Made by a program: the position numbers and the translations under genes. Under the pieces are notes generated by a model. It was not told the origin of the DNA. It saw only the letters and a list, made by a program, of their open reading frames with translations, and ran no database searches. From positions 1 to 24,854 of IMG/VR virus record IMGVR_UViG_3300020215_000133: a stretch of DNA of 24,854 bases. One strand, 5' to 3'. This DNA comes from a virus. Of the stretch, positions 1-21,447 are shown piece after piece. Within the stretch, counting starts at the first letter, position 1, and every line of letters starts with the position of its first letter.

Positions 1-1284
1 GAAGACCAGACGTGGCACTCGCTTAAAGAACTCAACGCCGAACGGGAACTGGCCGTCTGTAAGAACTGCGGCGCTGTCGCCTACCAGGTCGAACCCGAAA
101 GCGAGGAGAAGGTCAAAGAGTTCTATCGCAAAGCCTACCGGCCGGAACCGACCTATGAGAACCTCCTGACCACCACGCGCAAACAAAACTATATCGCCAT
201 CTTCCTGCGCGACTTCCTCAAAGGCAAGAAAGACCTCATATGCGGGGACGTGGGCTGCGCCACCGGCTACATTCCCCATTGGCTACGTACCCTGGGCCAT
301 AAGTCCACCGGCAGCGAATTGACCCTGGCATACCGCCGCTTCGCTGAGCATTTCTACGGTATCCCCATCCCTGAGGACTTAGAGCCTAAGCACCGCTATG
401 ACCTCATCAGCCTGTACCATGTCTTAGAGCACCTCACCGAACCTGACAAGAAACTGGCGCATTACGTGTCGCTTCTTAAAGACGACGGACACATGTTCAT
501 TGCCACCCCGGAATGGCTGGACGTGCTGGAAGAAGCCTCGGGCACGCCAACGTCCACGTTCCAACACCTCTTCCACAAGGAACACATTAATGTCTTCACT
601 TCTCAGTCCATTAAGAATCTCTTCGCTAAGGCTGGCCTCATTATCGAGAAGGAGGACCACATCCAGTATGGGCAGACCTATCTCCTCCGCAAAGACCCGC
701 ACCGGGAAACGTGCATTGTCAAAGAGGACTGGCAGGAAATCGTCGACAAAATTCACCGCCAGAACACGGCCATTAAGCTCTACAACGAGAAGAAGTACCA
801 GGAAGCCATTGACGTCTGGCCCAAGTTCCCCGAAGCGTGGCTCCAGCTCATCTTCCAGCGCCACGGCAAGGAGCCGGAATACCAGAACGAACTCTTCGAG
901 AAAGCCCACGAGGTCATTGGCGACAATTGCCGGCTCGCCCAACCACGCGGCATTTGGCTATGGCAACAGGAACGCTACCAAACAGCTTACGAGCAGCTCT
1001 CCTGGTGCGCGAGCGTCCGGCCCAACGACGACGTATTCTGGTTCATGGGCCAGTGCCTCATTCAACTTGGCCAGCCCAAAACAGCGATGGCGGCGTTCCA
1101 ACGCTGTCACGAAATGAACCCGGAACGGTGGAAAGAGTGTATTGCCGCCATTTGCCAGCTTGCCGCACGTATGCCGGCATGGGACGAACGCGCCCTGGCC
1201 GCCATGAAAGAGGAACTGGCTAAAGGGTTTAAGCCAGAGTTCAAGGACGTTGCGCTTGAAGAAAAAACAGCGACAGCCACATAA
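1..1284 (+). CDS. Class I SAM methyltransferase with N-terminal CxxC and C-terminal TPR-like region (5' partial)
   Basis: The frame is open from the first base, so the true start lies upstream; 427 residues are visible. A CKNCG pair near visible residue 20 looks like half of a zinc site. SAM motif I, DVGCATGY, sits at about residues 82-89, and the acidic end of strand 2 follows at GSEL. A DLISLYHVLEHL segment matches the strand 4 region of the Methyltransf_23/13 type, which often acts on sugars or small molecules. From about residue 255 to the end the chain is helical with TPR-like spacing (AIKLYNEKKYQEAI, then GQCLIQLGQPKTAMAAFQRC). The substrate cannot be read from sequence; a role in glycan or nucleotide modification is inference. 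The methyltransferase call is firm and the TPR call is likely. Confidence 0.8.
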   Translation, partial: EDQTWHSLKELNAERELAVCKNCGAVAYQVEPESEEKVKEFYRKAYRPEPTYENLLTTTRKQNYIAIFLRDFLKGKKDLICGDVGCATGYIPHWLRTLGHKSTGSELTLAYRRFAEHFYGIPIPEDLEPKHRYDLISLYHVLEHLTEPDKKLAHYVSLLKDDGHMFIATPEWLDVLEEASGTPTSTFQHLFHKEHINVFTSQSIKNLFAKAGLIIEKEDHIQYGQTYLLRKDPHRETCIVKEDWQEIVDKIHRQNTAIKLYNEKKYQEAIDVWPKFPEAWLQLIFQRHGKEPEYQNELFEKAHEVIGDNCRLAQPRGIWLWQQERYQTAYEQLSWCASVRPNDDVFWFMGQCLIQLGQPKTAMAAFQRCHEMNPERWKECIAAICQLAARMPAWDERALAAMKEELAKGFKPEFKDVALEEKTATAT

Positions 1285-4174: not shown

Positions 4175-5786
4175 CCGCTTCAAAGAAACCCTCGGCAATA
4201 AGCTGTGGCGCATCCAGAACCTCTATAAAATCCGGGACAAAAAAAAGAACCTCACCAACCTAAAACTCAACAATATCCAGAAGCGGATGTTGGCTGACAT
4301 CCAGGGGATGAACCCTATTCGCGGGTTCTGGATTAAGTACCGGCAAGGAGGGGTCTCGACCCTCTGGCTTATCTACTGGCTGGACGAAACCATCTTCAAC
4401 GAGAACACCATCACCGGTATTCTGGCCGACAAGAAAGAGAACCTGGGGTACCTCTTCGAGATAGTCCGCCTCGCCCATGCCTATATGCCGGAGGAGTACA
4501 AGCCCAGACTGGGCGAAGACTCCAAGTCCGTGCTGTCCTTCCCAGACGTGAACAGCAAGATTATGGTGTCCCTCTCAATCAAATCCACCGCCCTGCACAG
4601 TCTCCATATCTCCGAGTGGTGCTATTGCGACGATGCGGAAATAGCCCGCACCCTGGGCGCGTGCGCTCCTACAGCCAACATCACAGGGGAGTCCACCGGG
4701 AATGGTATTGGGAACCATGGCTATGAGCTGTACCAAGAGGGCAAGCGGGGGGAATCGCCGTTCAAGACCGCGTTCTACCCATGGTACATCCAGGAAGAGT
4801 ACAGAGTGCCCTTGAACGGCATAGACCCCGCCACAATCGTCTTAACCAAGGACGAGAGACGCCTGTCCGACTACGTGCGGAAAAACTATGACCTGGAACT
4901 GGACCTTGAACAAATCCTGTTCCGCCGGTCCAAGCAAAAGCAACTCAAAGGTCTATACCGGCAGGAGTTCCCGGAAACAGACGACGATGCTTTCCTCACC
5001 TCTGGCCACAAGTACTTCGAGCCACGCAAGATTCACCGCCTGTTGCTTGAAGCCAAGGACTGGGCCAGCGAACACGCCGCGGACATTACCGAAGACCCCA
5101 ATGAGGACTGGATTCAATGGGAGAAACCGCAGAAGGGTCACATCTACGCGGCCGGTGCGGACACCTCCGAAGGGGCCATCGACTATTCCTACCTGAAGAT
5201 TATCTGCGTGACATGCCGGCAGGAAGCGTTTCGCTACCGCGCCCGCGTGGGCGTGGACGTGTTCTACCGCCAATGCGACAAGTGGGGGAGAGAGTACCGG
5301 AACGCGCTCTTAGCGCCCGAACGCAATAACCACGGCCATGCCGTTATCCTGGGCCTCACCGAAATCTGCCATTACCCGAACATCTACAAAGAAGAAAAAA
5401 TCCGGCCGGCTATCGAGGTGGTAAAAGGCGTGTCCGCAACGAGCCATGATAGAACGGAGCAAAGAATTGGATGGCAAACGGATAGAGTCTCCAAATTCAC
5501 CATGTTGGACGACCTGAAGTACGCCATAGAGGGAGATTCGGCTGAAGACGAGGACCATTTCTTCCCCGAATTCCGGGTTTTTGACCAAATCCTGCTTTCG
5601 GAGTGCTTAACGTTTGAGGAGATTGACGGTAAACTGCAGGCAATTGAGGGAAAGCACGACGACGGAGTCATGGCCACCGCGATTGCTTTCCAGATGTACA
5701 AACGGCTTCGGCGCTACGTCCGCACCTACGCGCATGAGGGTAAAAAAGCTGGCATCCTCCTCGGCAGTCCAAGAGAAACAACCTGA
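4149..5786 (+). CDS. terL: Terminase large subunit (packaging ATPase and nuclease)
   Basis: A 545-residue motor protein that pumps DNA into the prohead and cuts concatemers. A Q-like motif (LNNIQKRML) is at 40-48, the Walker A variant KYRQGGVST at 63-71, Walker B LHISEW at 152-157 and the coupling motif ESTGNG at 181-186. The RNase H-like nuclease carries D338 in AGADTSEG, E391 in PERNNHG and the HDD pair at 503-505. FPETDDDAF at about 274 is another family hallmark. The ATG lies inside the MazZ-like gene with a weak, distant GAGGGCGGA upstream, suggesting coupled translation. The length is normal and the motifs are complete. The packaging strategy (cos or headful) cannot be told from this alone. 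Confidence 0.96.
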   Translation: MTLNPQEHNRFKETLGNKLWRIQNLYKIRDKKKNLTNLKLNNIQKRMLADIQGMNPIRGFWIKYRQGGVSTLWLIYWLDETIFNENTITGILADKKENLGYLFEIVRLAHAYMPEEYKPRLGEDSKSVLSFPDVNSKIMVSLSIKSTALHSLHISEWCYCDDAEIARTLGACAPTANITGESTGNGIGNHGYELYQEGKRGESPFKTAFYPWYIQEEYRVPLNGIDPATIVLTKDERRLSDYVRKNYDLELDLEQILFRRSKQKQLKGLYRQEFPETDDDAFLTSGHKYFEPRKIHRLLLEAKDWASEHAADITEDPNEDWIQWEKPQKGHIYAAGADTSEGAIDYSYLKIICVTCRQEAFRYRARVGVDVFYRQCDKWGREYRNALLAPERNNHGHAVILGLTEICHYPNIYKEEKIRPAIEVVKGVSATSHDRTEQRIGWQTDRVSKFTMLDDLKYAIEGDSAEDEDHFFPEFRVFDQILLSECLTFEEIDGKLQAIEGKHDDGVMATAIAFQMYKRLRRYVRTYAHEGKKAGILLGSPRETT

Positions 5787-7998
5787 CGAACCTTCCAAAA
5801 AAGTAACGCCAACCATTCTTACTGGGTCAGCGTTAGAAGCCCAGACCATTTACAAGAGTCCCGTCTTCGCGGACTCCTACATCTTCCCATTCAACCCCGA
5901 CCCGCTCGTTTCCGGCAACGATTACTCGATTTACAAAGAGATGATGAACGACGACCAGGTCAAGGCCGCCATCAGCCTGAAGAAGGACATGGTCATCAAC
6001 ACCGGCTGGAAGATTGAATGCGAGAACGACGAAATCAAAGAGTTCGTCGAGGCCGCCTTCAAGCGCATTAACGAGGGCCTGACCGTCGATATGTCTTTTG
6101 AGGATTCTTTGAGGGACATCCTCTCAAGCTACGAGTTCGGCTTCAGCCTAACCGAGCCGGTCTACGGGCTAGAAGAAGAAGGGGAGTATCAGGGGAAATA
6201 CATCTACAAATGCTTGAAGACCCGCCCGCCTGACACGTTCCGGTTCAACATTGACGACAAGGGCAATGTAACCTCGATTTCCCAGGTGCAGAACATGGGA
6301 GAGAAACAGTTCAAGCCCTCCATGTTCATTCACCACGTCTACCAGCAAGAGTTCGGCAATCCCTATGGGCGCAGCGACCTAAGCGCGGCGCATGACCACT
6401 GGAAGGCCAAGAAGTTCGTCATGCGCTTTATGGCCATGTACCTGGAACGGTTCGCCCAGCCCACCGTGGCCGGCGAGTACCCGACCACCATGGACTCGAA
6501 CGAAATCAACGCCTTCCACACCATGCTGAAGTCGATTCAAAGCCACACCACGCTGGCGTTCCCGCAAGGCACAAAGATTGACTTGCTCTACCCCCAGCGC
6601 GACGGGTCGGATTCCTACATCAAGGCCGTGGACCTCTACAACATGATGATTGCCCGGTCCATCCTGGTGCCGGACCTCCTGGGCATTGGCGGGGCCCAAA
6701 CCAAGGGCGGTTCCCTGGCCCTTGGCAAAGAACACTTTAAGACCTTCCTCGGCACCATCTACAAAGACCGCCAGGCCCTTGAACGCAAAATCACCCTCAA
6801 GCTGGTTAAGCCCCTTATCGAGGTCAACTTCGGGAAATCGGACGTTCCTGTCGAATTTAAGTTCGTCGAGTACACAGAAGACGACGTGTCCGCCTATGCG
6901 GACCTGTGGGTGAAAGCGGTCAGCGCCAAGATATTCAAGCCAAACCCGGAGGAAATCAACCATTTCCGGTCCATCACCGGATTCCCAGAAGGCGATGTGA
7001 TGGAGTTCCCGGAACCGACCGAGTTCGGGCCGGACGGCAAGCCCATCAAACCCAACGAACCGCCAAAGACACCGTTCGACAAGAACGGCAAGCGCGTGGA
7101 AGAACCCGAGGGGGAGAAGAAACCCAAGAAAGACGAGGGCAAGTACGCGCTCAAGACGTTTCGGGAGAAAACCGCTTTTGAGAAGAAAGTCGACTTCGTG
7201 GAAATGAAGCGCACGCTGGACGAGTCCGAAGACACGGTGTTCCAAGCTCTCAGGCGCACGGCGAAGATGGTGTTTGGCGATTTCATCGACCAAATCCGCG
7301 ACAAGGGCCTCATCCGCAACTTCCGCCCCGAGAAGATGAACGAGATTCAGCCCAGGCACATGAAAGAAATGAACCTGGTGTTTCGCAACCATTTCCGGCA
7401 ATTGTTCCGGGATTCCATAGACGAGGCACGGCGGGAGATATTCCCCAACGGGGTCAAAACCAGCAAGTTCAGCGATGCGCTTCTCCCCGAAGAATTCGAG
7501 GAAATCATCGCCGCCGAATCCTTCAAAGTGGTGGGGGACTATGCGACGCACATCACGAAGAAAGGCAAGAACGTGTTGGTGGAAGGCATTAAGTCCGGCC
7601 AGTCTGAGGCCGACATTGTGCGTGCTATACGAGACCTGGCGGTGGACGAAACGGAAAGCTGGCTGGCCACGGTGGTGCGTACCAAGACCACCGAGATTTA
7701 TAACGAGGCCCGGCGCAGCTATTGGGAGAATGACGAGTTTGCCAGCCAGCTAGTCGAAGCCTACCAGTTCAGCGCCATCATGGACAACCGCACCTCGGAT
7801 GTCTGCGCGGAACTGGACGGGAAGATTTTTAGCTTGGAAGACGAAGTCGCCCGTATCACGCCGCCCCTGCATTTCAATTGCCGAAGCGTGCTTGTCCCCA
7901 TCACCAAATTTGAAGAGTACAAGGCCGAGAAGGTGCCGGCGGTTGACCGGATACAAGAGCTTGGCGGCGGGCTCAAGAACTTCGCCAAGGAAGGGTAG
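5734..7998 (+). CDS. Portal protein fused to MuF-type head morphogenesis domain
   Basis: A 754-residue fusion. ATG at 5734 overlaps terL by 53 bases; no good ribosome binding site is seen, but no other credible start exists. Residues about 55-420 resemble the DUF935 (Mu gp29-like) portal: VKAAISLKKDMVINTGWKIE, a GGAQTKGGSLALGKEH segment and FRSITGFPEGD. A proline/lysine-rich linker spans 425-469. Residues about 590-725 form the MuF (Mu gp30/SPP1 gp7) domain with RTKTTEIYNEARR, DNRTSDVCAELDGKIF and PPLHFNCRSVLVPI. The portal is the dodecameric DNA gate of the capsid; MuF proteins are minor head proteins, some ejected with the DNA. In Mu the two are separate genes, so the fusion fixes their ratio. 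Confidence 0.9.
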   Translation: MRVKKLASSSAVQEKQPDEPSKKVTPTILTGSALEAQTIYKSPVFADSYIFPFNPDPLVSGNDYSIYKEMMNDDQVKAAISLKKDMVINTGWKIECENDEIKEFVEAAFKRINEGLTVDMSFEDSLRDILSSYEFGFSLTEPVYGLEEEGEYQGKYIYKCLKTRPPDTFRFNIDDKGNVTSISQVQNMGEKQFKPSMFIHHVYQQEFGNPYGRSDLSAAHDHWKAKKFVMRFMAMYLERFAQPTVAGEYPTTMDSNEINAFHTMLKSIQSHTTLAFPQGTKIDLLYPQRDGSDSYIKAVDLYNMMIARSILVPDLLGIGGAQTKGGSLALGKEHFKTFLGTIYKDRQALERKITLKLVKPLIEVNFGKSDVPVEFKFVEYTEDDVSAYADLWVKAVSAKIFKPNPEEINHFRSITGFPEGDVMEFPEPTEFGPDGKPIKPNEPPKTPFDKNGKRVEEPEGEKKPKKDEGKYALKTFREKTAFEKKVDFVEMKRTLDESEDTVFQALRRTAKMVFGDFIDQIRDKGLIRNFRPEKMNEIQPRHMKEMNLVFRNHFRQLFRDSIDEARREIFPNGVKTSKFSDALLPEEFEEIIAAESFKVVGDYATHITKKGKNVLVEGIKSGQSEADIVRAIRDLAVDETESWLATVVRTKTTEIYNEARRSYWENDEFASQLVEAYQFSAIMDNRTSDVCAELDGKIFSLEDEVARITPPLHFNCRSVLVPITKFEEYKAEKVPAVDRIQELGGGLKNFAKEG

Positions 7999-8412: not shown

Positions 8413-8853
8413 ATGACAACCGTCAACTGGGAAAACTATCCGTCCGCAACTACATACCTGTCGACCGAGCTGAACAGCTTGGCCTCAAGCGCCAACAAAC
8501 TTGGGGCAGCCATTGATAATTCCACCAATGGTAAGCGATTCATCGACATCGAAATAAGCCTGGCTGCCCAATCCTCCGCGCGGTCCTCCAACGCGCGCGT
8601 GGACATTTACGTTTTGCCAAGCATTGACGGCACGAACTTTACCTACGGGGACGATTCCACAGACCCCCCGCTGAACACCTGGCTGGCTTCTGTGTCGTTC
8701 GACGCCACAACCACGGCGCGGCGCAACGTCACGCGCCATCACGATGCGCCCGCAGGCCAGTTCAAGATGTTGGTCATGAACGAAACCGGACAAGCCTTCG
8801 GAGCCACTGGCAACACCGTGAAGTACGTCTTGTACAGCGAGGTCAACGAATGA
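8413..8853 (+). CDS. Beta-rich putative virion protein
   Basis: A 146-residue protein with AAGGGG upstream of its ATG. Strands alternate through the chain (RFIDIEISLAAQ, ARVDIYVLPSID, TWLASVSFDATTTARRNVTRHH, GQFKMLVMNETGQAF, NTVKYVLYSEV), which fits a beta sandwich. The TTARR..TRHHDAP..F..LV.NETGQA string recurs in phage structural proteins of unknown function that I have seen next to head or tail genes. It opens the beta-rich cassette between portal and protease, so a capsid-surface or decoration role is plausible. No enzyme motif is present. Confidence 0.7.
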   Translation: MTTVNWENYPSATTYLSTELNSLASSANKLGAAIDNSTNGKRFIDIEISLAAQSSARSSNARVDIYVLPSIDGTNFTYGDDSTDPPLNTWLASVSFDATTTARRNVTRHHDAPAGQFKMLVMNETGQAFGATGNTVKYVLYSEVNE

Positions 8854-9695
8854 GTCGAGCCATAAGACACCGCGGGCTTGTGCCGCCCAATGTCCCGGTG
8901 ACTCTCGACACCAAGCACCCGCTCGCGCACGGTTTACGGGCGGCCTGGACAGGAATCGGGTCAGCGGGAACGACGCGGTACTACGATTACACCCGCCGCC
9001 GGCTGGACGGTTCTTTTAAGTCCTCAACGGAACCAGCTTGGGTCAGTGACCAGGAACGCGGGCTGGTGGTGTCCTTTGACGGGACGGACGATTTCATCGT
9101 CTGTGACGACGTCATTCCCGGCACGTACTCGGCCCTGTCGTTTTCTCTATGGGTCAAACTCGCCCAACAGGACGGCAGCGCACGGATGATTTTTAGCACC
9201 AAGAACGGGTCCGTGGACGGGATTGAAGTCTTCAAGTGGACAACCAACAAAATCCTGATTTTGTTCGACACATCGGCGGGAAGCGTGGCCCCGCTCTCGA
9301 ACGCAGCCCTTTCGGCGAATGTCTGGTACCACGTGGGCGGCACATGGGACGGCAGCAATGTGCGCCTGTATATCAATGGGGAAATACAAACGGATATCCA
9401 GGCGCTCGGCGGAACCTTAACGCACGTCAATGTGCCAAGAATCGGCGCGGAAGCGGCGGGCAACTTTTTCTTTGGTCGTGTCGACGACGTGCGTATCTAT
9501 GGCCGCGCCTTGAGCAACGTGGAAATGTGGCAGCTATGGGCACCGCAAACCCGCTACGCGATTTATCGGCCGAAGGGACGCGGTTCCGCCTACGACACGG
9601 TAGCGGCACCCGCCGCCGGCCGGCCGACGGTCACGCACTTAGACCGGCACGCCCTGCGTGGTGTTATGCGCGGCGTGTCACGGAGGGCCATCTAA
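8850..9695 (+). CDS. LamG/concanavalin A-like domain protein, probable virion adhesin
   Basis: A 281-residue protein in an ATGA overlap with the preceding gene. Residues about 60-225 have the LamG jelly-roll pattern: GLVVSFDGTDDFIVCDD, YSALSFSLWVKL, WYHVGGTWDGSNVRLYINGE, then FFFGRVDDVRIYGRALSNVEMWQLW. That last stretch is a strong signature of LamG-type domains in secreted and virion proteins, which often bind carbohydrate. The N-terminal 40 residues and the basic C-terminus (HLDRHALRGVMRGVSRRAI) may anchor it to the particle. No signal peptide is present. A lectin domain among head genes, rather than with tail fibres, is unusual. Confidence 0.85.
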   Translation: MSRAIRHRGLVPPNVPVTLDTKHPLAHGLRAAWTGIGSAGTTRYYDYTRRRLDGSFKSSTEPAWVSDQERGLVVSFDGTDDFIVCDDVIPGTYSALSFSLWVKLAQQDGSARMIFSTKNGSVDGIEVFKWTTNKILILFDTSAGSVAPLSNAALSANVWYHVGGTWDGSNVRLYINGEIQTDIQALGGTLTHVNVPRIGAEAAGNFFFGRVDDVRIYGRALSNVEMWQLWAPQTRYAIYRPKGRGSAYDTVAAPAAGRPTVTHLDRHALRGVMRGVSRRAI

Positions 9696-14039: not shown

Positions 14040-14969
14040 ATGCCATTCCGACATAAGGTACACCGAGACGCAATACTGGAGAACCATTCAGTCGCCTATA
14101 AGCCCGAGGGGCTTATCTCGGGTGAGTTCCCAGTGGTGCCCGTCGTGCGTGAATCCGACATTTATTACGTCTATTCAAAGGACTTAATGAATATCCCGGA
14201 AACCGCCCGCACTAAAGGAAAAGCCAACGAGCCCGATTGGGACATGTCGACCGCCTCTTACCTCCTGACGAACCATGCCCTGCAAAAGCATGTGTACGAC
14301 CGGGACAAGCGGAACACCGACAAACCCATCAACCTGGAATTCGACGCTACCGAGATTCTCACGCAGAAGCTCATGCTTCGGTTTGAGAAATCCTGCGCGA
14401 CGCTCTTCCAGGGCGATGCCAACTGGTCCAACAGCATGTCCTTGAGCGCGGATGCGTCGTTTGTGACCAACACCACAAACCCAATCCGGGTTTATGACAG
14501 CGCCACGTCCGTGATTGCCGTTCAGTCCGGCAAACTGCCGAACACGGCGATTGTGAACTACGACACATGGCTGGCCATCAAAGAGAACTCCGCGACCGTG
14601 GACCGCATCAAGTTCACATCGGCGGATTCCCTGGGCCCGGACATGTTCGCGCGTCTCATCAACGTGCAGAAGTTCCTGGTCGCCCGGACGCCGGAAAACA
14701 CCGCGCAAGAGCCGTTCGCGGACGCCACCACCACCTCGCAACAGTCCATCTGGACCAACGCGTCGTGGATTGGCTACCTCGAATCCTCGGCGGGTCTACA
14801 GAAAGCGTCGGCCGTGTACGTGTTCCAGTTGAACATGGGCACCAACGGCGTGAAAGTGGACCGCTGGAGAGACGACGAGGAAGAAGCCGATGTGATTCGT
14901 GTCCAGAAGGAATACCAAGTCAGGGCGGTGGCTACGTCCTGCGGGTTCCTCATCGAGGACACCATCTAA
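14040..14969 (+). CDS. Major capsid protein
   Basis: A 309-residue protein with GGGGGTGA upstream. The N-terminus (DAILENHSVAYKPEGLISGEFPVVPVVRESDIYYVY) shows the usual capsid start: a short N-arm, a hydrophobic strand, then a V..ES..YY.Y segment. An E-loop-like region follows, and a central YDTWLAIKENSATVDRIKF segment corresponds to the A-domain helix often written as 'D.W..L....' in HK97-fold proteins. The end (ADVIRVQKEYQVRAVATSCGFLIEDTI) closes the P domain. The gene follows protease, scaffold and decoration, and precedes the connectors, which is the canonical place. Length and context make this the shell protein with good confidence. Confidence 0.88.
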   Translation: MPFRHKVHRDAILENHSVAYKPEGLISGEFPVVPVVRESDIYYVYSKDLMNIPETARTKGKANEPDWDMSTASYLLTNHALQKHVYDRDKRNTDKPINLEFDATEILTQKLMLRFEKSCATLFQGDANWSNSMSLSADASFVTNTTNPIRVYDSATSVIAVQSGKLPNTAIVNYDTWLAIKENSATVDRIKFTSADSLGPDMFARLINVQKFLVARTPENTAQEPFADATTTSQQSIWTNASWIGYLESSAGLQKASAVYVFQLNMGTNGVKVDRWRDDEEEADVIRVQKEYQVRAVATSCGFLIEDTI

Positions 14970-15056: not shown

Positions 15057-15464
15057 ATGGCATATCCACGAGGGACACGCCGGCAATTGCGGGCGGAAGG
15101 ACAAGCGGTTCTGGAACGGGAAGGCGAGCCAGAGGGCCTGGATTTCACGGAACAGAGGGGCGCGGAAAAGGTTTTCCTGCCCTATGAGGGACCGGAAAGC
15201 CTGCCGCCTTTTGACCCGGACACTTCGAACACTTACAAGAAATCGCGGTTCTTTGTGACGGGTTACAAGTCGGGCACGATGAAGCTCATTCGCGTGTACC
15301 GGGGCGCACCGAGCGGGAAGCGGAAAGAGGGCGACACCAGCCCGTTTACGGGAACGACGATTAAGCACCAGCTTGTGACCACGTTTCAACCGCTCAACAA
15401 AAAGAAGCCGCGCAACACCATGATTTACGAACGGCTGAAGAAAGCGGGTCTCATCCGAGAGTAA
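15057..15464 (+). CDS. Protein of unknown function in the connector region
   Basis: A 135-residue basic protein with GGGAGGA upstream. It begins with a charged stretch (RGTRRQLRAEGQAVLEREGE) and continues with possible strands (SRFFVTGYKSGTMKLIRVYRG and TTIKHQLVTTF), ending in KKPRNTMIYERLKKAGLIRE. Its place between the major capsid and gp36-like genes is where small head-completion proteins often lie. The basic charge would suit DNA or capsid contact. No family is recognised. It is joined to the next gene by TAATG. Confidence 0.6.
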   Translation: MAYPRGTRRQLRAEGQAVLEREGEPEGLDFTEQRGAEKVFLPYEGPESLPPFDPDTSNTYKKSRFFVTGYKSGTMKLIRVYRGAPSGKRKEGDTSPFTGTTIKHQLVTTFQPLNKKKPRNTMIYERLKKAGLIRE

Positions 15465-15949
15465 TGGGAAACTACGCGACGACCACCTCCATCAGCGAAA
15501 TTCTGCCGGGGTTCCTCAAGGGGAACACCACAACCACGGACGCTTTCGGAACCAGCGTCATGGCCCGGCGGTTCAACGACGCCGAAGCGGAAATCAACGG
15601 CGTTATTGCCGCCCGGTACTCGCTTCCGTTTACGACGGTGCCGCCCCTGGTGCGCAGCCTGACGGCCAAGCTGGCGGCGGGCTATGCCATCCGGGACGGG
15701 TTCGCGGTGGAAGGGTTGCGGCGCAACCAATACCTCGACGACTTCAAAGAGGCCAAGGACACGCTGAAAATGCTGGTCACAGGCGACATGAAGCTGACCT
15801 ATACGGACGGGTCGCTGGTCCCCGTGAACACCTCGTCGCGGTTTAAATCCAGCGCGGAGAATTACACCCCCATCTTCGGGCGGGACGAACCGAAGAAATG
15901 GACGCGGGACCAGGACGAAATTGACGACACGTCCAACGCGAGGGAATAG
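15464..15949 (+). CDS. Head-tail connector, DUF1320 / Mu gp36-like
   Basis: A 161-residue protein. The helical core (DAEAEINGVIAARYSLPFTTVPPLVRSLTAKLAAGYAIRDGF) is the signature of DUF1320/gp36-type neck proteins, where a pair of helices, a short 'RY.LP' turn and a 'VP.LV...A..LA..Y..RD' helix recur. These proteins sit below the portal and form part of the connector that receives the tail. The C-terminus is polar and ends acidic. The start overlaps the preceding stop (TAATG). The family match is by motif memory and fits the position. Confidence 0.8.
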   Translation: MGNYATTTSISEILPGFLKGNTTTTDAFGTSVMARRFNDAEAEINGVIAARYSLPFTTVPPLVRSLTAKLAAGYAIRDGFAVEGLRRNQYLDDFKEAKDTLKMLVTGDMKLTYTDGSLVPVNTSSRFKSSAENYTPIFGRDEPKKWTRDQDEIDDTSNARE

Positions 15950-16470
15950 TGGCCGGCGAAGTCGAAATCACCTTCGACGACAGCGCATGGCGGGGGTTCA
16001 TAAACGAAGTGTCGGCCAAGGCCAAGAAAGCCGACAGGCTCTTGGAAGCGGCGTTCATGACCCATGGCTTCAAAGACATCATCGACCACTTCGAGAAAGA
16101 AGAAGGGCCGCAGGGGAAATGGCCGAAGCGGTCGCCAGTGACCCAGGACATTTACGCAGCCATTCAGGCTGGCCTGCGCAAACCGCCGGCCGGCAGCCCG
16201 CGGGCGGCTTATGACCCCGGCAACAAGGTCTTGCAATTGACTGGCCTTCTGCGGAAATCGCTCCTTGGCAATCGCTCCAACATCAAATCCATGGGGACAA
16301 ACGCCATCAAGATATTCTCGCCGGTGAAGTATTCCGGCCAGCATGACGAAGGCGACGCTACCAAGAACCTGCCCCAGCGCCAGTTTATGTGGCTGTCGGA
16401 ACGGGCCAAGGACCGTATGGCGGTCACGATTCTTGACCTCCTCATCGGCCAAGAGAAAGGGCAGATTTAA
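15949..16470 (+). CDS. Virion morphogenesis / tail completion protein (Mu gpG-like)
   Basis: A 173-residue protein starting at GTG, with GAGGG upstream and a one-base overlap with the previous stop. Characteristic pieces are HFEKEEGPQGKWPKRSPVT, LQLTGLLRKSL, VKYSGQHDEGD and LPQRQFMWLSERAKD; together they match the phage virion morphogenesis family (Mu gpG, P2 gpS), where 'F..E..PDG..W', 'L..TG.LR.S', 'YA..HQ.G' and 'PAR.F.GLS' are the four landmarks. Members complete the head-proximal end of the tail. The order after the gp36-like gene is the same as in Mu. Confidence 0.85.
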   Translation: MAGEVEITFDDSAWRGFINEVSAKAKKADRLLEAAFMTHGFKDIIDHFEKEEGPQGKWPKRSPVTQDIYAAIQAGLRKPPAGSPRAAYDPGNKVLQLTGLLRKSLLGNRSNIKSMGTNAIKIFSPVKYSGQHDEGDATKNLPQRQFMWLSERAKDRMAVTILDLLIGQEKGQI

Positions 16471-16976
16471 TGGCCTTCAACTACGAGACAAACGTCAATG
16501 CCCTGGTCCAAACGCTGAAGGACTACAACACCACAACGGCCGCGGTGGACCTCTCAAATGGCCTGACCACGCGCATTGAAAGCGACAACATCAAACAGCA
16601 CGACATCGAGGTTGCGGGGGTTCTGGGGTGGAACTTGCCGGCGGTGTACGTGCGCATTGTGAACGCGGACGAAGAGTTTGTGGGCCTCGGTATCACAGGG
16701 CCGTCTGGGAACAAGAAAGAAAAGACCGTAAAGTACCAAATCATTGGGATTTATAAGCGGGAAGGTCTTGAGAGCGACCACGCAGACCTCATGACGGAAA
16801 CATACCGGTTAGCGAAGAACATTGAAGGCGTGCTGCAGGCGGAACTGGATTTGTCCGGGACGGCGCTTTGGTGCAACCCGGGGCGGACGGAGTTCAGCGC
16901 GGCATTGGAAATTGACACCGGGGCCTGGGTAAAGGCCGTGGTGGTCGACGTTGAAGCGAAGTATTTCTTCCGATAG
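16470..16976 (+). CDS. Probable tail terminator / minor tail protein
   Basis: A 168-residue protein in a TAATG overlap, with AAAGGG upstream. An N-terminal helix (NVNALVQTLKDYN) is followed by a mixed alpha/beta pattern: AVYVRIVNADEEFVGLG, KTVKYQIIGIYKREG, a helix (DLMTETYRLAKNIEGVL), and a final strand pair (WVKAVVVDVEAKYFFR). The closing 'V.V.V...Y' and the central 'Y.I.G.Y' fit gpU/gp17-type tail terminator folds. The order connector, completion protein, terminator, then tail tube supports it. The sequence alone would not identify it, so the name is mainly positional. Confidence 0.55.
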   Translation: MAFNYETNVNALVQTLKDYNTTTAAVDLSNGLTTRIESDNIKQHDIEVAGVLGWNLPAVYVRIVNADEEFVGLGITGPSGNKKEKTVKYQIIGIYKREGLESDHADLMTETYRLAKNIEGVLQAELDLSGTALWCNPGRTEFSAALEIDTGAWVKAVVVDVEAKYFFR

Positions 16977-16987
16977 GAGAAAACACA

Positions 16988-17974
16988 ATGGCGGTTGTGG
17001 TGACTCAGAAAGATGTGGTGAACCAAAGCACGCAAGTGTGGAACCAGTTTGGGGAATCCAAGTGGATTCCATTTGCCAAAGAGAACGCGAAGCTGGGGCG
17101 GCGTTCGACCGAGGAACTGCGCAATTCCGGCATTGGCAAGTTTCTTGTGTCCGCGGCCATGGGCGAGAGCCTTGAAGAGTCTGTGCCAATCCTCAAGCAG
17201 TACCGCGACCGGTTCGACCTTCTGACCTGTGACAAAGGCTTCGGCAAGCTTTTGGAACAGGGCCTTAAAGCCGACTACGTGATGATTTGCGACTGTAACA
17301 TTCTGCCGAAATGGATTGACCCCTACATCGAAGAAACCAAGGGCGTCAGCCTGATTTGCACCCCTTACGCCAACCCGGCGTGGACCACGCGCTGGCTGGG
17401 GCCGCGATACTTCTACGTCAACAAAGACGCCATCAACACCCAGAAGTATTTCATGCCCATCTTCGGCGAAGACATCCGCGTTGTGCCGGCGTCCACGAAT
17501 GTGTCAAACGCCATGGTCGTTTTCTGGACCGGAGCCGACGAGACCAACCATTATAACTGGGGCGGCTACGAACAGATTCTTTTGACCGGCTACGACTATT
17601 CCTGGCGGCCGGACGGCAAATACTACGCCTATGAGGACATGAAGCCGAAACGGCATTACATGAGCCACCGGGTCATGCTGGACATCAACAATGACTGGGT
17701 CCGCACCAGCGAGAACCTCTATTTTTCAGCCAAGTGGATGTACTCCTACCTCACCACTTTCCGGTTGCCGGTGGTGAACTGCACGGGGCGCGGGATTCTC
17801 TACACGCCGCTGCGGGGAAAGATGGAGACATGCTTGGCCGCCATCAAACCCGGGCTGGATGCGCGCACGCACGTGTTGCAACAGTTCGAGCTGGCAAAAC
17901 TGGCGAACAAGAATTTCGAGGCGGCGAAGGAACTATTCGAGAAATCCAGGGAGGAACTCTATGTCTATCGGTGA
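16988..17974 (+). CDS. MptE/Maf-like (DUF115) domain protein, possible glycosyltransferase-type enzyme
   Basis: A 328-residue protein with AGGAG upstream. Residues about 50-105 (KFLVSAAMGESLEESVPILK, DLLTCDKGFGKLLEQGLKADYVMICDCN) match the Rossmann-like core of DUF115, known from archaeal MptE and the central domain of flagellin Maf proteins, in which 'G.SL....L', 'A...L...GI.PDY....D' recur. Residues 172-215 (NAMVVFWTGADETNHYN, EQILLTGYDYSW) and 264-272 (NCTGRGILY) complete the domain, so it looks intact. Maf enzymes attach sialic-like sugars to flagellin; MptE transfers pyrophosphate to a pterin. The place, between tail terminator and tail tube with tight coupling to the tube gene, suggests action on virion proteins, which is inference. 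Confidence 0.75.
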   Translation: MAVVVTQKDVVNQSTQVWNQFGESKWIPFAKENAKLGRRSTEELRNSGIGKFLVSAAMGESLEESVPILKQYRDRFDLLTCDKGFGKLLEQGLKADYVMICDCNILPKWIDPYIEETKGVSLICTPYANPAWTTRWLGPRYFYVNKDAINTQKYFMPIFGEDIRVVPASTNVSNAMVVFWTGADETNHYNWGGYEQILLTGYDYSWRPDGKYYAYEDMKPKRHYMSHRVMLDINNDWVRTSENLYFSAKWMYSYLTTFRLPVVNCTGRGILYTPLRGKMETCLAAIKPGLDARTHVLQQFELAKLANKNFEAAKELFEKSREELYVYR

Positions 17975-18968
17975 TGAAGCAAAAGTCGGCCTACAGTCCT
18001 ACGTCGCGCTCGGTAAGGAATCCACGTTCGGCACCTACGCCTCCGCGACCTCGGCCATCGAAGCGATTTCCTGTTCGTTCAGGACGGACATCAGCAGCGT
18101 TAAGCTGGACACCTTCGGCCCTAACCGGGGATTCATGAAACGTGTTCAGACCGACAAAGTCGTGGGCGGGACACTGGAAAAGTACGCTCACGCCAACGAG
18201 GACGTGTTGTTGTGGGCCGTCGCCCTGGGCGGTAGCTTTACGTTCACCTCCGTCACGTCCGCCGGCCTCTTCAGCTTGACCGCGGGGAACTTTGACACCG
18301 CGCCGGCCAGCCTGTCTTTCAACGTGCGCAAGGGCGACACGCATACCTGGCGCTATTCCGGCGGACGCATTAACAACTTGACCGTGGCCGCGACCGTGGG
18401 GGAACCCGTGCGGTTGACGGCCGAGTTCATGTTCAAGGACTCGACCCAGCAATCGGACAACATTGCCTCGAGCCTGTCCATCAGTTCGGCGGCGCCGTTC
18501 ATCTACACAGACGGCGTGTTCCGCTATGCCAACACCGAAGCCAACGCGGCCACAACGACCTCCGAGGAACGGATTCAGTCCTTTGAACTGTCCATTAACA
18601 ATAACCTGGAAGCCGGCCGGGAACTTGGGTCGGATGTCCTGCGGGTTCTGCCCGCCAAGCGCCGGGAGATTAGCTTCACCATCACGCAACGGTTCGACAC
18701 GACCACGTCGTACACCCGGTTCATTCAGGCTACCCAAGGCGCTGTGGAATTGAAGTTTACAGGCGACGCCATCACCGCCGAGCACAACTACGAGATGACC
18801 ATTCGGCTACCGAAAGTGTTCTTGAACAGCCCGGACCCGGAACTGGGCGGGGCCAACGAGCTTCTCTCAAGCCAAATCACGTATGACGTGCTTGTGGACT
18901 CTGTCAGCACCACAACGGGCCGGGACATCGGCGTCACGATTCGCAACGCCTATACCGCCACCCTGTAA
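17961..18968 (+). CDS. Major tail tube protein
   Basis: A 335-residue protein starting at ATG, with AGGGAGGA five bases upstream and a 14-base overlap with the preceding gene; an upstream reading from 17859 has no such site. The N-terminal LGKESTFGTYASAT and the repeating strands (VVGGTLEKYAHANEDVLLWAV, LSFNVRKGDTHTWRYSGGRINNLTVAATVGEPVRLTAEF, RIQSFELSINNNLEAGRELG, REISFTITQRFD) form the pattern of phage tail tube proteins, in which 'GRINNLT', 'G..V..TAEF' and 'S..L.INN..E' are recurrent. It would be the hexameric ring unit of the tail. The chain is Ser/Thr-rich. Its position before the chaperone and tape measure is standard. Confidence 0.82.
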   Translation: MSIGDEAKVGLQSYVALGKESTFGTYASATSAIEAISCSFRTDISSVKLDTFGPNRGFMKRVQTDKVVGGTLEKYAHANEDVLLWAVALGGSFTFTSVTSAGLFSLTAGNFDTAPASLSFNVRKGDTHTWRYSGGRINNLTVAATVGEPVRLTAEFMFKDSTQQSDNIASSLSISSAAPFIYTDGVFRYANTEANAATTTSEERIQSFELSINNNLEAGRELGSDVLRVLPAKRREISFTITQRFDTTTSYTRFIQATQGAVELKFTGDAITAEHNYEMTIRLPKVFLNSPDPELGGANELLSSQITYDVLVDSVSTTTGRDIGVTIRNAYTATL

Positions 18969-19468
18969 TGTGGCCCTTCAGCCGGACGCCCGCTAAGGGC
19001 GACCTCCTCGGGTACAAGACCGTCACGATAAAGGGGAACCGCTTTGTCATTAAGAAGCTGAACCCCTTTACGGACTTCACCGAGGAGAACATGCCGCAAA
19101 TCTTCACCACGTTCATCCCACGCCGGAACATGGACATGGAGAAGATGCCGGAAGCGGTGAAGAAGAAATACGACGACGGCATTAAGGCGGTTCTACAGGC
19201 GGGGGTGATAGAACCGGCCTTGGTGCCCATTGGCAAAGGCGATGCGCGGGGGAAAGAAGACGGCGTCACCGCCGATGACCTCATGCGTGACCCCGACATC
19301 GCCCTTCGGCTGTACATCGAAATTGTCGCCCATTCCCTGAACCGGTTTAAGGGGGTTCGTGGGCTTTTTTTTTCTCTCCGCGTAAAGTCCATCTTATACA
19401 CCAATTGGCGAAAAGTTATGCGCGAACACCAATTGAGATTCTTTTCCCCGAAGGCGGCTACAGCGTGA
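18968..19468 (+). CDS. Tail assembly chaperone, zero-frame product (G-like)
   Basis: A 166-residue protein in a TAATG overlap with the tube gene. It begins MWPFSRTPAKGDLLGYKTVTIKGNRFVIKKLNPF, a beta start typical of these chaperones, then turns helical. The frame continues across a T9 run and ends in 32 residues (from about SLRVKSILY) that do not look like family sequence. G-type chaperones coat the tape measure and recruit tail tube subunits and are not kept in the virion. Its place between the tube and tape measure genes is diagnostic even though the sequence is poorly conserved. Confidence 0.75.
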   Translation: MWPFSRTPAKGDLLGYKTVTIKGNRFVIKKLNPFTDFTEENMPQIFTTFIPRRNMDMEKMPEAVKKKYDDGIKAVLQAGVIEPALVPIGKGDARGKEDGVTADDLMRDPDIALRLYIEIVAHSLNRFKGVRGLFFSLRVKSILYTNWRKVMREHQLRFFSPKAATA

Positions 19469-19551: not shown

Positions 19552-21447
19552 GTGGCCGAAAAAGAAGCAACACTCATACTGAAACTCAAAGACGCGTTCA
19601 GCCAGCCCATCAGTGGGGTGATGGGGAAACTGGGGCAATTGAAGGCCGGGTACCTTGCCGTCGCCGCGGCTGTGGCCGGCCTGGCGTCCTTTCTCAAGGG
19701 TGCCCTGGAAGAGTACGGCAAACAACAACAGGCCGTCGCCAAACTTGAGAACGCTCTGAAGAATCAAGGCACAGCCAGTGAAGGGGCCAGCCAACGCCTC
19801 CAAGACCTAGCTTCGTCACTCCAGAAAACGACTACCGTCGCGGACGAAACCATTATTGAATTGCAGGCGCTTTTGGCGACCTTCGGCTTCAATGAAGCGG
19901 CCATCACAAAACTGATTCCACGAATTCTCGACCTATCGGCGGCAACCGACATCGAACTTAGAACTGCAACCGTTGCGCTGGCTAAATCCATTCAAACCGG
20001 TTCTGTCGGTGCATTGCAACGCTACGGTATTCAAATGGACGAGGCAGCGTTCAAGGCCAAGGATTTCGCGGCCATCACCGCGGCGCTAGACGCTAAAAAC
20101 AAGGGCGCGGCGCAAACTCTCGCGGGAACATACCTTGGACGTTTACTACAGCTCCACAACTCCTATTCCGAGTTGAAAGAGAATCTGGCGAAACTTCTAG
20201 TCGGGCCAGCAACGACATTTCTCAAATGGTTGAACTCAGCCGTCATATGGATGGCCGAAGCCATACCTAAAGTAGAAAAGATGGCCCGTGAGGTCCTTAT
20301 TCTCCAATTGCGGGTAACACAAGCGGCTCTGGCCTTCGGCAAGTTTATTCCTGGCGTTGGTGATTTATCGCTCAAGATGGCGGATGCGCTGAAAAAGCAG
20401 GTTGAACTGGCTCATGGCGTGGAAAAAACAACGAATAAGGTGAAAGACCAGATTCCGGCTTTTCATGGAGCCGGAGATGCAGCGAAAGAATACACGGCCT
20501 TGGCCATCTATACAGCGAAAACGCGGGAACAAATTTACGCCGAAGAACTGAACCGGCGCATGACCAAGGACCGGGAATGGTTCGACCAGAACGTACGTGT
20601 GTGGGACGCCATTCGGCTGAAGATGCACGAGAACGCCACCACCATGACCGACATCTGGGTCGGCACCGTGGACACCATGGTCAATTCCTTTTCGTCTGGC
20701 ATGGCCGATGTTTTGGTGAACGGTGATTCGTTTAACGCAAAGATGAAAGACATCGGCAACCAAGTCCTGCATCACTTTGTCGCCGAGGTCATCAAGAAAA
20801 TGGTGACGGAATGGGTCGCGGGGCTGGCGGCGCAGTCGGCGGCCGGCGATGCCTTTCGTGCCAACGAAGCGGCCAAGAATGCCGCTTTTGCCGGGTCCGG
20901 CGGCTTTGGTGCTGGCGGCAGCGGACTGGGCGCTCTGGGTGGATTCTTGGGCGGTGCCGGTATTGGCATTGGCCTTTCAAGCAACATCGGCGGTAAAGAT
21001 ACAAACAAGGGCGGTGCCGCGGCAGGTTCCGTCGCTGGAGCGGCACTTGGCACGCTCATGTTCGGCCCACTGGGCGGCCTAGCCGGCGGGGCTATTGGCG
21101 GAGCCATCGGTGGTGGGATTCAACGGCTTGGGAAGAGCCTCAAGAAAAGGTTTTCAGGCGGCGTCATTAACGAGCCAACCATGATGTTTGGCATGAAGAG
21201 CGGGCAAATCGGAATTGCCGGGGAGCGGGGCGTTCCCGAAGCCATTATGTCGTTCCCGGAACTTGGGCATACGCCGGAGTCCGGGCGGAAGGCCCTTATG
21301 GGCGGTGGGGGTGGCGGCGGCACAGTCGTCATCAACATCAACGCGGGTGCGTTCATGGGCGACGAACGTCAGGCCCGGGAAATGGCCAAAATCATCGACA
21401 AGCACCTGTTCAGCCTGTCCCGGAATAGAAGTTCCGTTGCGTTATAA
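19552..21447 (+). CDS. Tail tape measure protein
   Basis: A 631-residue protein starting at GTG directly after the stop of the chaperone extension. The N-terminus (ATLILKLKDAFSQPISGVMGKLGQLKAG) is the usual TMP opening, followed by a hydrophobic helix at about 32-48. A helical body, including DIGNQVLHHFVAEVIKKMVTEW, leads to a Gly/Ala-rich zone at about 447-524 that probably inserts in the membrane during DNA entry. The C-terminus carries FGMKSGQIGIAGERGVPEAIMSF, a hallmark of lambda-type tape measures, and a GGGGGGG run. Length sets tail length; 631 residues at the usual 0.15 nm each would give a short siphovirus tail of roughly 95 nm. No lytic domain is visible. Confidence 0.93.
   Translation: MAEKEATLILKLKDAFSQPISGVMGKLGQLKAGYLAVAAAVAGLASFLKGALEEYGKQQQAVAKLENALKNQGTASEGASQRLQDLASSLQKTTTVADETIIELQALLATFGFNEAAITKLIPRILDLSAATDIELRTATVALAKSIQTGSVGALQRYGIQMDEAAFKAKDFAAITAALDAKNKGAAQTLAGTYLGRLLQLHNSYSELKENLAKLLVGPATTFLKWLNSAVIWMAEAIPKVEKMAREVLILQLRVTQAALAFGKFIPGVGDLSLKMADALKKQVELAHGVEKTTNKVKDQIPAFHGAGDAAKEYTALAIYTAKTREQIYAEELNRRMTKDREWFDQNVRVWDAIRLKMHENATTMTDIWVGTVDTMVNSFSSGMADVLVNGDSFNAKMKDIGNQVLHHFVAEVIKKMVTEWVAGLAAQSAAGDAFRANEAAKNAAFAGSGGFGAGGSGLGALGGFLGGAGIGIGLSSNIGGKDTNKGGAAAGSVAGAALGTLMFGPLGGLAGGAIGGAIGGGIQRLGKSLKKRFSGGVINEPTMMFGMKSGQIGIAGERGVPEAIMSFPELGHTPESGRKALMGGGGGGGTVVININAGAFMGDERQAREMAKIIDKHLFSLSRNRSSVAL

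Follow-up and report, generated by a model that had tools for sequence, protein, structure and literature searches.

Why should a tailed phage carry, within its tail operon, a gene for a DUF115 protein, a member of the family of the flagellin-modifying Maf enzymes and the archaeal pterin enzyme MptE? The question is raised by a viral stretch of 24,854 nucleotides (IMG/VR record IMGVR_UViG_3300020215_000133, hereafter the window), in which genes for neck, terminator, DUF115, tube, chaperone and tape measure proteins follow one another. The initial annotation placed a DUF115 gene at 16988-17974, between a tail terminator candidate and the tail tube gene, with a 14-base overlap with the latter, and raised the possibility that the phage glycosylates its own tube or another Ser/Thr-rich virion protein, which would be a new self-decoration system. 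The gene, its position and the overlap were all upheld.

On the plus strand, the major head protein (14040..14969; phrog_1005, E 1e-52) precedes a Mu Gp36-like head-tail adaptor (15464..15949; PF07030, phrog_195) and a neck or tail completion protein (15949..16470; phrog_26). The next gene (16470..16976, +) had no Pfam or PHROG match and is called the tail terminator candidate because it is placed between the neck gene and the DUF115 and tube genes, that is, by position and synteny. The DUF115 gene (16988..17974, +; 328 aa) overlaps the gene for a tail tube protein of the T5 pb6/P74-26 type (17961..18968, +) by 14 nt, the tube ATG being at 17961 and the DUF115 stop at 17974. The tube was identified by PF18906 (Phage_tube_2, E 2e-27) and by a model started from ATG 17961 (mean pLDDT 73.5), which matches solved siphophage tail tubes with Z 20-26 (25.8 to the SH-Ab15497 major tail protein, 8xan; 24.5 to P74-26, 8ed0; about 20-22 to T5 pb6); the tube protein had no match among cultured phages. 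A tail assembly chaperone candidate (18968..19468, +), named by position and conserved in most loci, and the tape measure protein (19552..21447, +; phrog_12798, phrog_167) follow. The window also encodes a fusion of a Mu-type portal protein and a Mu F-like head morphogenesis domain (5614-7998) and, between the portal and capsid genes, a Laminin_G_3 (concanavalin A-like) protein (8850-9695) with no homolog in the related records scanned.

The DUF115 protein matches PF01973 over residues 39-178 (52.8 bits vs a gathering cut-off of 34.6, E 5e-14), as do all relatives in the DUF115 alignment (36/36). An AlphaFold 2 model built on the alignment of 36 relatives (pLDDT 92.5, pTM 0.90) contains the Rossmann-like core of the solved DUF115 members, and its top match in the PDB is Maf (5mu5; Foldseek E 1.6e-10). 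VIA-align placed 241 residues of the model onto Maf residues 238-516 (Z 22.1, rmsd 3.1), with MptE of M. jannaschii (8sd5) as the second best fold (Z 16.4), followed by SteA (Z about 11) and the CMP-sialic acid transferases of GT29 and GT42 (Z 8-10; about 10 for GT29 ST8SiaIII and about 9 for GT42 CstII). A profile of the phage DUF115 family reaches Maf at the sequence level over the GPSL region (E 2e-5), and the best NCBIfam match, below cut-off, is the flagellin modification protein PseD. No PHROG family covers the protein. The nearest BFVD models belong to an uncultured Caudovirales phage and a marine virus (30% and 26% identity), both named 'MptE-like'. Furthermore, BFVD holds uncultured Caudovirales 'MptE-like' proteins of 685-700 aa (A0A6J5PVH5, A0A6J7XC21; 11-12% identity to the model), possibly a second, full-length Maf-like phage group. 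Profile, predicted model and fold together support a Maf-like assignment for the window protein. The relation to Maf and MptE proposed at the outset is supported by structure search, with Maf ahead. A pterin pyrophosphokinase like MptE, acting in nucleotide or folate metabolism, would share the Pfam family and the second best fold; given the clearly better Maf match, the tail-operon position and conserved partners that are sugar genes, this reading is very unlikely.

The 36 phage DUF115 proteins, which share 29-55% identity with the window protein, have 25 invariant residues, including G59, S61, D82, K83, D102, D147, N171, G201, D203, Y212, Y213 and K221, most of which lie where core strands end, going by the secondary structure predicted for the model. 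Three motifs can be located on the plus strand: G59-E-S61 (codons 17162..17170), a GxS motif in place of the cellular GPSL, with G59 and S61 invariant; N171-V-S-N-A (17498..17512), with N171 and V172 invariant; and G201-Y-D203 at the end of a core strand (17588..17596), with G201 and D203 invariant. Judged by conservation and position, these residues look like a kept ligand site, and invariant Gly, Ser, Asp, Lys, Asn and Tyr are what an enzyme would keep, which counts toward an enzymatic role; past the first motif, cellular DUF115 proteins from Elusimicrobiota could be compared only weakly at the residue level. Absolute conservation, a position typical of morphogenesis genes and an extra long C-terminal helix added to the fold would also suit a non-catalytic structural or assembly factor, such as a tube chaperone or a virion part, with the sugar genes described below serving another transferase. 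Invariant polar residues at core-strand ends across 36 divergent proteins are not required by a purely structural role, and this alternative is considered decidedly unlikely.

The position of the gene is as constant as its sequence motifs. All of the records used are metagenomic fragments, and relatives were found only through scans with capsid, DUF115 and tube alignments; scans with the single DUF115, capsid or portal protein found none. The capsid alignment scan gave 80 loci, and among 50 of their records checked, DUF115 was present in exactly five, those with the five most similar capsids, each time roughly 3 kb downstream of the capsid gene and between terminator and tube, and in none of the other 45. 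With the DUF115 alignment as bait, 43 viral loci and two genome-assembly contigs were found, and DUF115 lies between terminator and tube wherever the contig shows both flanks. The tube alignment, an independent bait, gave 43 further loci, and DUF115 stands directly before the tube in 42 of these; in the one exception the contig starts at the tube. The DUF115-scan and tube-scan sets share some viruses and together comprise about 85 loci. The DUF115 stop lies at most 20 nt from the tube ORF start in 76/85 loci, and on contigs that include the flanks DUF115 was in no other place than the terminator-tube gap. The initial annotation had suggested looking for the same gene order in related phages, and it was found in every locus showing both flanks. 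Since 36/36 relatives match PF01973 and the order recurs in every independent two-flank locus, the observation is more than chance. Synteny across loci also rules out a chance insertion (moron). The DUF115-carrying phages are a large, uncultured group of tailed phages.

Several features of individual loci were recorded. In one capsid relative (L103), the tube is distant (E 2e-14) and DUF115 is absent; its order of terminator-like gene, one small ORF and tube is close to ordinary tail gene order. In four loci (L125:464-2068, L126:2734-4281, L146:8336-9994 and L149:1115-2719) the terminator ORF reaches 515-552 aa through a long N-terminal extension, which by eye consists of a concanavalin-type lectin-like part and then short repeats. 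At L123:8624-12561 the tape measure gene consists of two consecutive ORFs. Two DUF115 tail loci (L153 and L154) lie on contigs of metagenome-assembled genomes called Pricia antarctica and Endomicrobiia; the names may hint at hosts, or the contigs may be free phage that was binned along.

The same phages carry a sugar cassette with a fixed order: a radical-SAM/SPASM enzyme with CxxxCxxC intact, a cytidylyltransferase-GT2 fusion, a 3-deoxy-ulosonate synthase (NeuB- or DAHPS-like) and a TPR-methyltransferase. A local profile scan found all four genes in this order in 20 of 26 records. In three others (the window, G128 and G146) the cassette is cut by the contig end, and it is missing only in three fragments of 17-34 kb; all related records of at least 36 kb (n=20) have all four genes. 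PF02348 (CTP_transf_3, the KdsB/NeuA-type cytidylyltransferase family) and PF00535 (GT2) each scored above cut-off in 25 of 33 DUF115 records, in most of them within one protein of about 445 aa, whose N-terminal half matches PDB 6oew and several KdsB cytidylyltransferases and whose C-terminal half matches GT2 enzymes. As a control, capsid relatives without DUF115 were scanned, giving no PF02348 match (0/45) and no NeuB (0/24). In the window, the last cassette gene, encoding the TPR-methyltransferase (1..1284, +; Methyltransf_23 and TPR), is cut by the left edge. Over 417 aa, its product (residues 3-415) has 47% identity to that of the G127 cassette gene, which in that record sits just before the terminase, and it has 45% to that of G017. 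Since the window begins inside the methyltransferase gene, the other three cassette genes are presumed, rather than seen, for its virus.

The synthase varies between records. Two records hold both the NeuB-like and the DAHPS-like enzyme (G141, L258, 14253-15741; G147, L267, 31286-33278); in the others, either of them takes the same place in the cassette. KPR(T/S)S is the erythrose 4-phosphate-binding motif of DAHP synthase. In the DAHPS-like enzymes it is replaced by (R/S)AGT(Y/F)P in 15/15 copies showing the region (one further copy and one edge fragment gave no match there); these enzymes are therefore probably not of the aromatic pathway and likely use another acceptor aldose. The synthase type tracks neither the DUF115 tree nor the tree of the fusion protein, and no link between the specificities of donor and transferase could therefore be drawn.

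A different target for these sugars would be the phage DNA, with the cassette modifying it and DUF115 participating. Phage glycosyltransferases that hypermodify DNA are known, as cited in PMC12619734, and the window does carry a gene that joins a ParB-N domain to an N6/N4 DNA methylase (1365-2576). Homologs with 34-63% identity occur in otherwise different phages (19 phage loci in the scan), and DUF115 was absent from the 15 records searched and from four cultured phages; the methylase gene is common to unrelated phages. Modification of DNA is very unlikely: none of the annotated proteins is the product of a modified-base synthesis gene, the tail position does not fit, and CMP-ulosonates are not known to act as donors for DNA.

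A phage whose gene products include a Maf-type fold, a KdsB-type cytidylyltransferase and an ulosonate synthase would, on the simplest reading, make and transfer a CMP-ulosonate. We propose, with a probability of roughly 0.55, that the DUF115 protein is a stand-alone Maf-type glycosyltransferase, produced alongside the tail proteins, that puts a phage-made sugar of the CMP-ulosonic acid type on a virion protein, most likely the tube. The NeuB-like or DAHPS-like synthase would form a 3-deoxy-ulosonic acid by condensing an aldose with phosphoenolpyruvate, and the fusion protein would activate this acid as a CMP-sugar through its cytidylyltransferase half. Tailoring or extension may fall to the GT2 half, together with the radical-SAM enzyme and the methyltransferase. 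While particles are being assembled in the cytoplasm, the DUF115 protein would then attach the sugar to Ser/Thr residues on a virion protein. The tube, encoded immediately downstream, is put forward as the probable acceptor, as flagellin is for Maf, because the DUF115 gene is fixed beside the tube gene and translated with it. Ser/Thr content fails as a pointer to the tube, which at 21% (vs 22% in the distal tail protein) is not unusually rich. Domain identity, fold, invariant residues, synteny, and the cassette with its co-occurrence are observations, and the fold and the donor logic of this proposal are well supported; we infer the CMP-ulosonate donor itself, catalysis, the Ser/Thr linkage and, from gene position, the tube as acceptor. 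The co-occurrence of cassette and DUF115 could stem at least partly from shared ancestry and not shared function, and the main transferase could instead be the GT2 half, leaving another job to DUF115.

The main rival to virion glycosylation is modification of the host surface. The cassette and DUF115 might alter flagellin, LPS or capsule while the phage infects or lysogenises its host, perhaps as a means of keeping other phages out, and the tail-operon location would then be historical. A GT2 and a cytidylyltransferase would suit a surface glycan, and phage-borne genes converting pseudaminic acid in the Acinetobacter capsule are reported in PMC12053666. Across the approximately 85 loci DUF115 lies only between terminator and tube, which implies that it is expressed late, with the virion proteins. 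Phage genes that modify the surface usually lie outside the structural operon, and this explanation is considered unlikely. The phage group probably sugar-coats part of its own particle, most likely the tail. A broader proposal, offered tentatively and at somewhat less than even odds, is that this siphophage clade makes a sugar of the CMP-ulosonic acid type and that tail assembly requires its attachment to the tube by the tail-operon enzyme, in parallel with flagellin glycosylation before filament formation, while exchange of NeuB-like and DAHPS-like synthases diversifies the coat. If virion glycosylation is correct, tailed phages would follow the sugar logic of glycosylated flagella, with the complete donor pathway in their own genomes and a transferase that is as invariant in the tail operon as the tube is. 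It would also give a function to the widespread viral 'MptE-like' annotation, define a compact module for ulosonic acid O-glycosylation lacking the outer domains of Maf, and make the question of why phages sugar-coat their particles directly testable.

Among known systems, the best fold match is Maf (Magnetospirillum 5mu5; C. botulinum), which has the same central domain, named Maf_flag10 or DUF115 (PMC11339370). Maf enzymes transfer CMP-activated nonulosonic acids to Ser/Thr of flagellin, and the C. botulinum enzyme, which modifies Ser/Thr, also accepts CMP-Neu5Ac and CMP-Kdo (PMC11339370). In both settings a transferase is paired with a protein that polymerises into a tube, and the sugar comes from genes of the NeuB and cytidylyltransferase types. 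However, the phage protein of 328 aa consists of the central domain with short helical extensions; it lacks the two outer domains of Maf, Rossmann-like at the N-terminus and helical at the C-terminus, which may serve in flagellin recognition. Furthermore, its gene neighbours a tail tube and not a flagellin gene, and sequence similarity is distant (12% in the structural alignment). As the three-domain architecture is not present, the protein is filed as Maf-like DUF115 and not as Maf. MptE, the archaeal 6-hydroxymethylpterin pyrophosphokinase, shares the Pfam family and core fold, but its fold match is weaker, the phage gene has no pterin context, and the GPSL motif has become G-x-S.

The Caulobacter FlmG system, with its pseudaminic acid genes, resembles the proposed phage system in that a filament protein is O-glycosylated in the cytoplasm, a CMP-activated nonulosonic acid being the donor. 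FlmG binds flagellin through a TPR domain, and TPRs also occur in the phage system, although there they are on the methyltransferase, and FlmG has a GT-B domain and not DUF115. Glycosylated mycobacteriophages (Che8 and relatives) encode their own glycosyltransferases, and glycans on their capsid and tail tube have been reported (Freeman et al., 2023, as cited in PMC12619734 and PMC11256854). In Maravista the reported transferase genes lie near the 3' end of the genome, whereas here the DUF115 enzyme is locked in the tail operon and the phages supply ulosonate and CMP-sugar genes of their own. Glycosylation of virions is therefore not new in itself, and the 'new self-decoration system' of the initial annotation must be narrowed in this respect, while gaining from the conserved ulosonate and CMP-sugar cassette in the same phages. 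In the open-access literature, no paper was found linking a DUF115 enzyme or an ulosonate cassette to a phage virion. What is new here is the type of transferase and the phage-encoded donor pathway.
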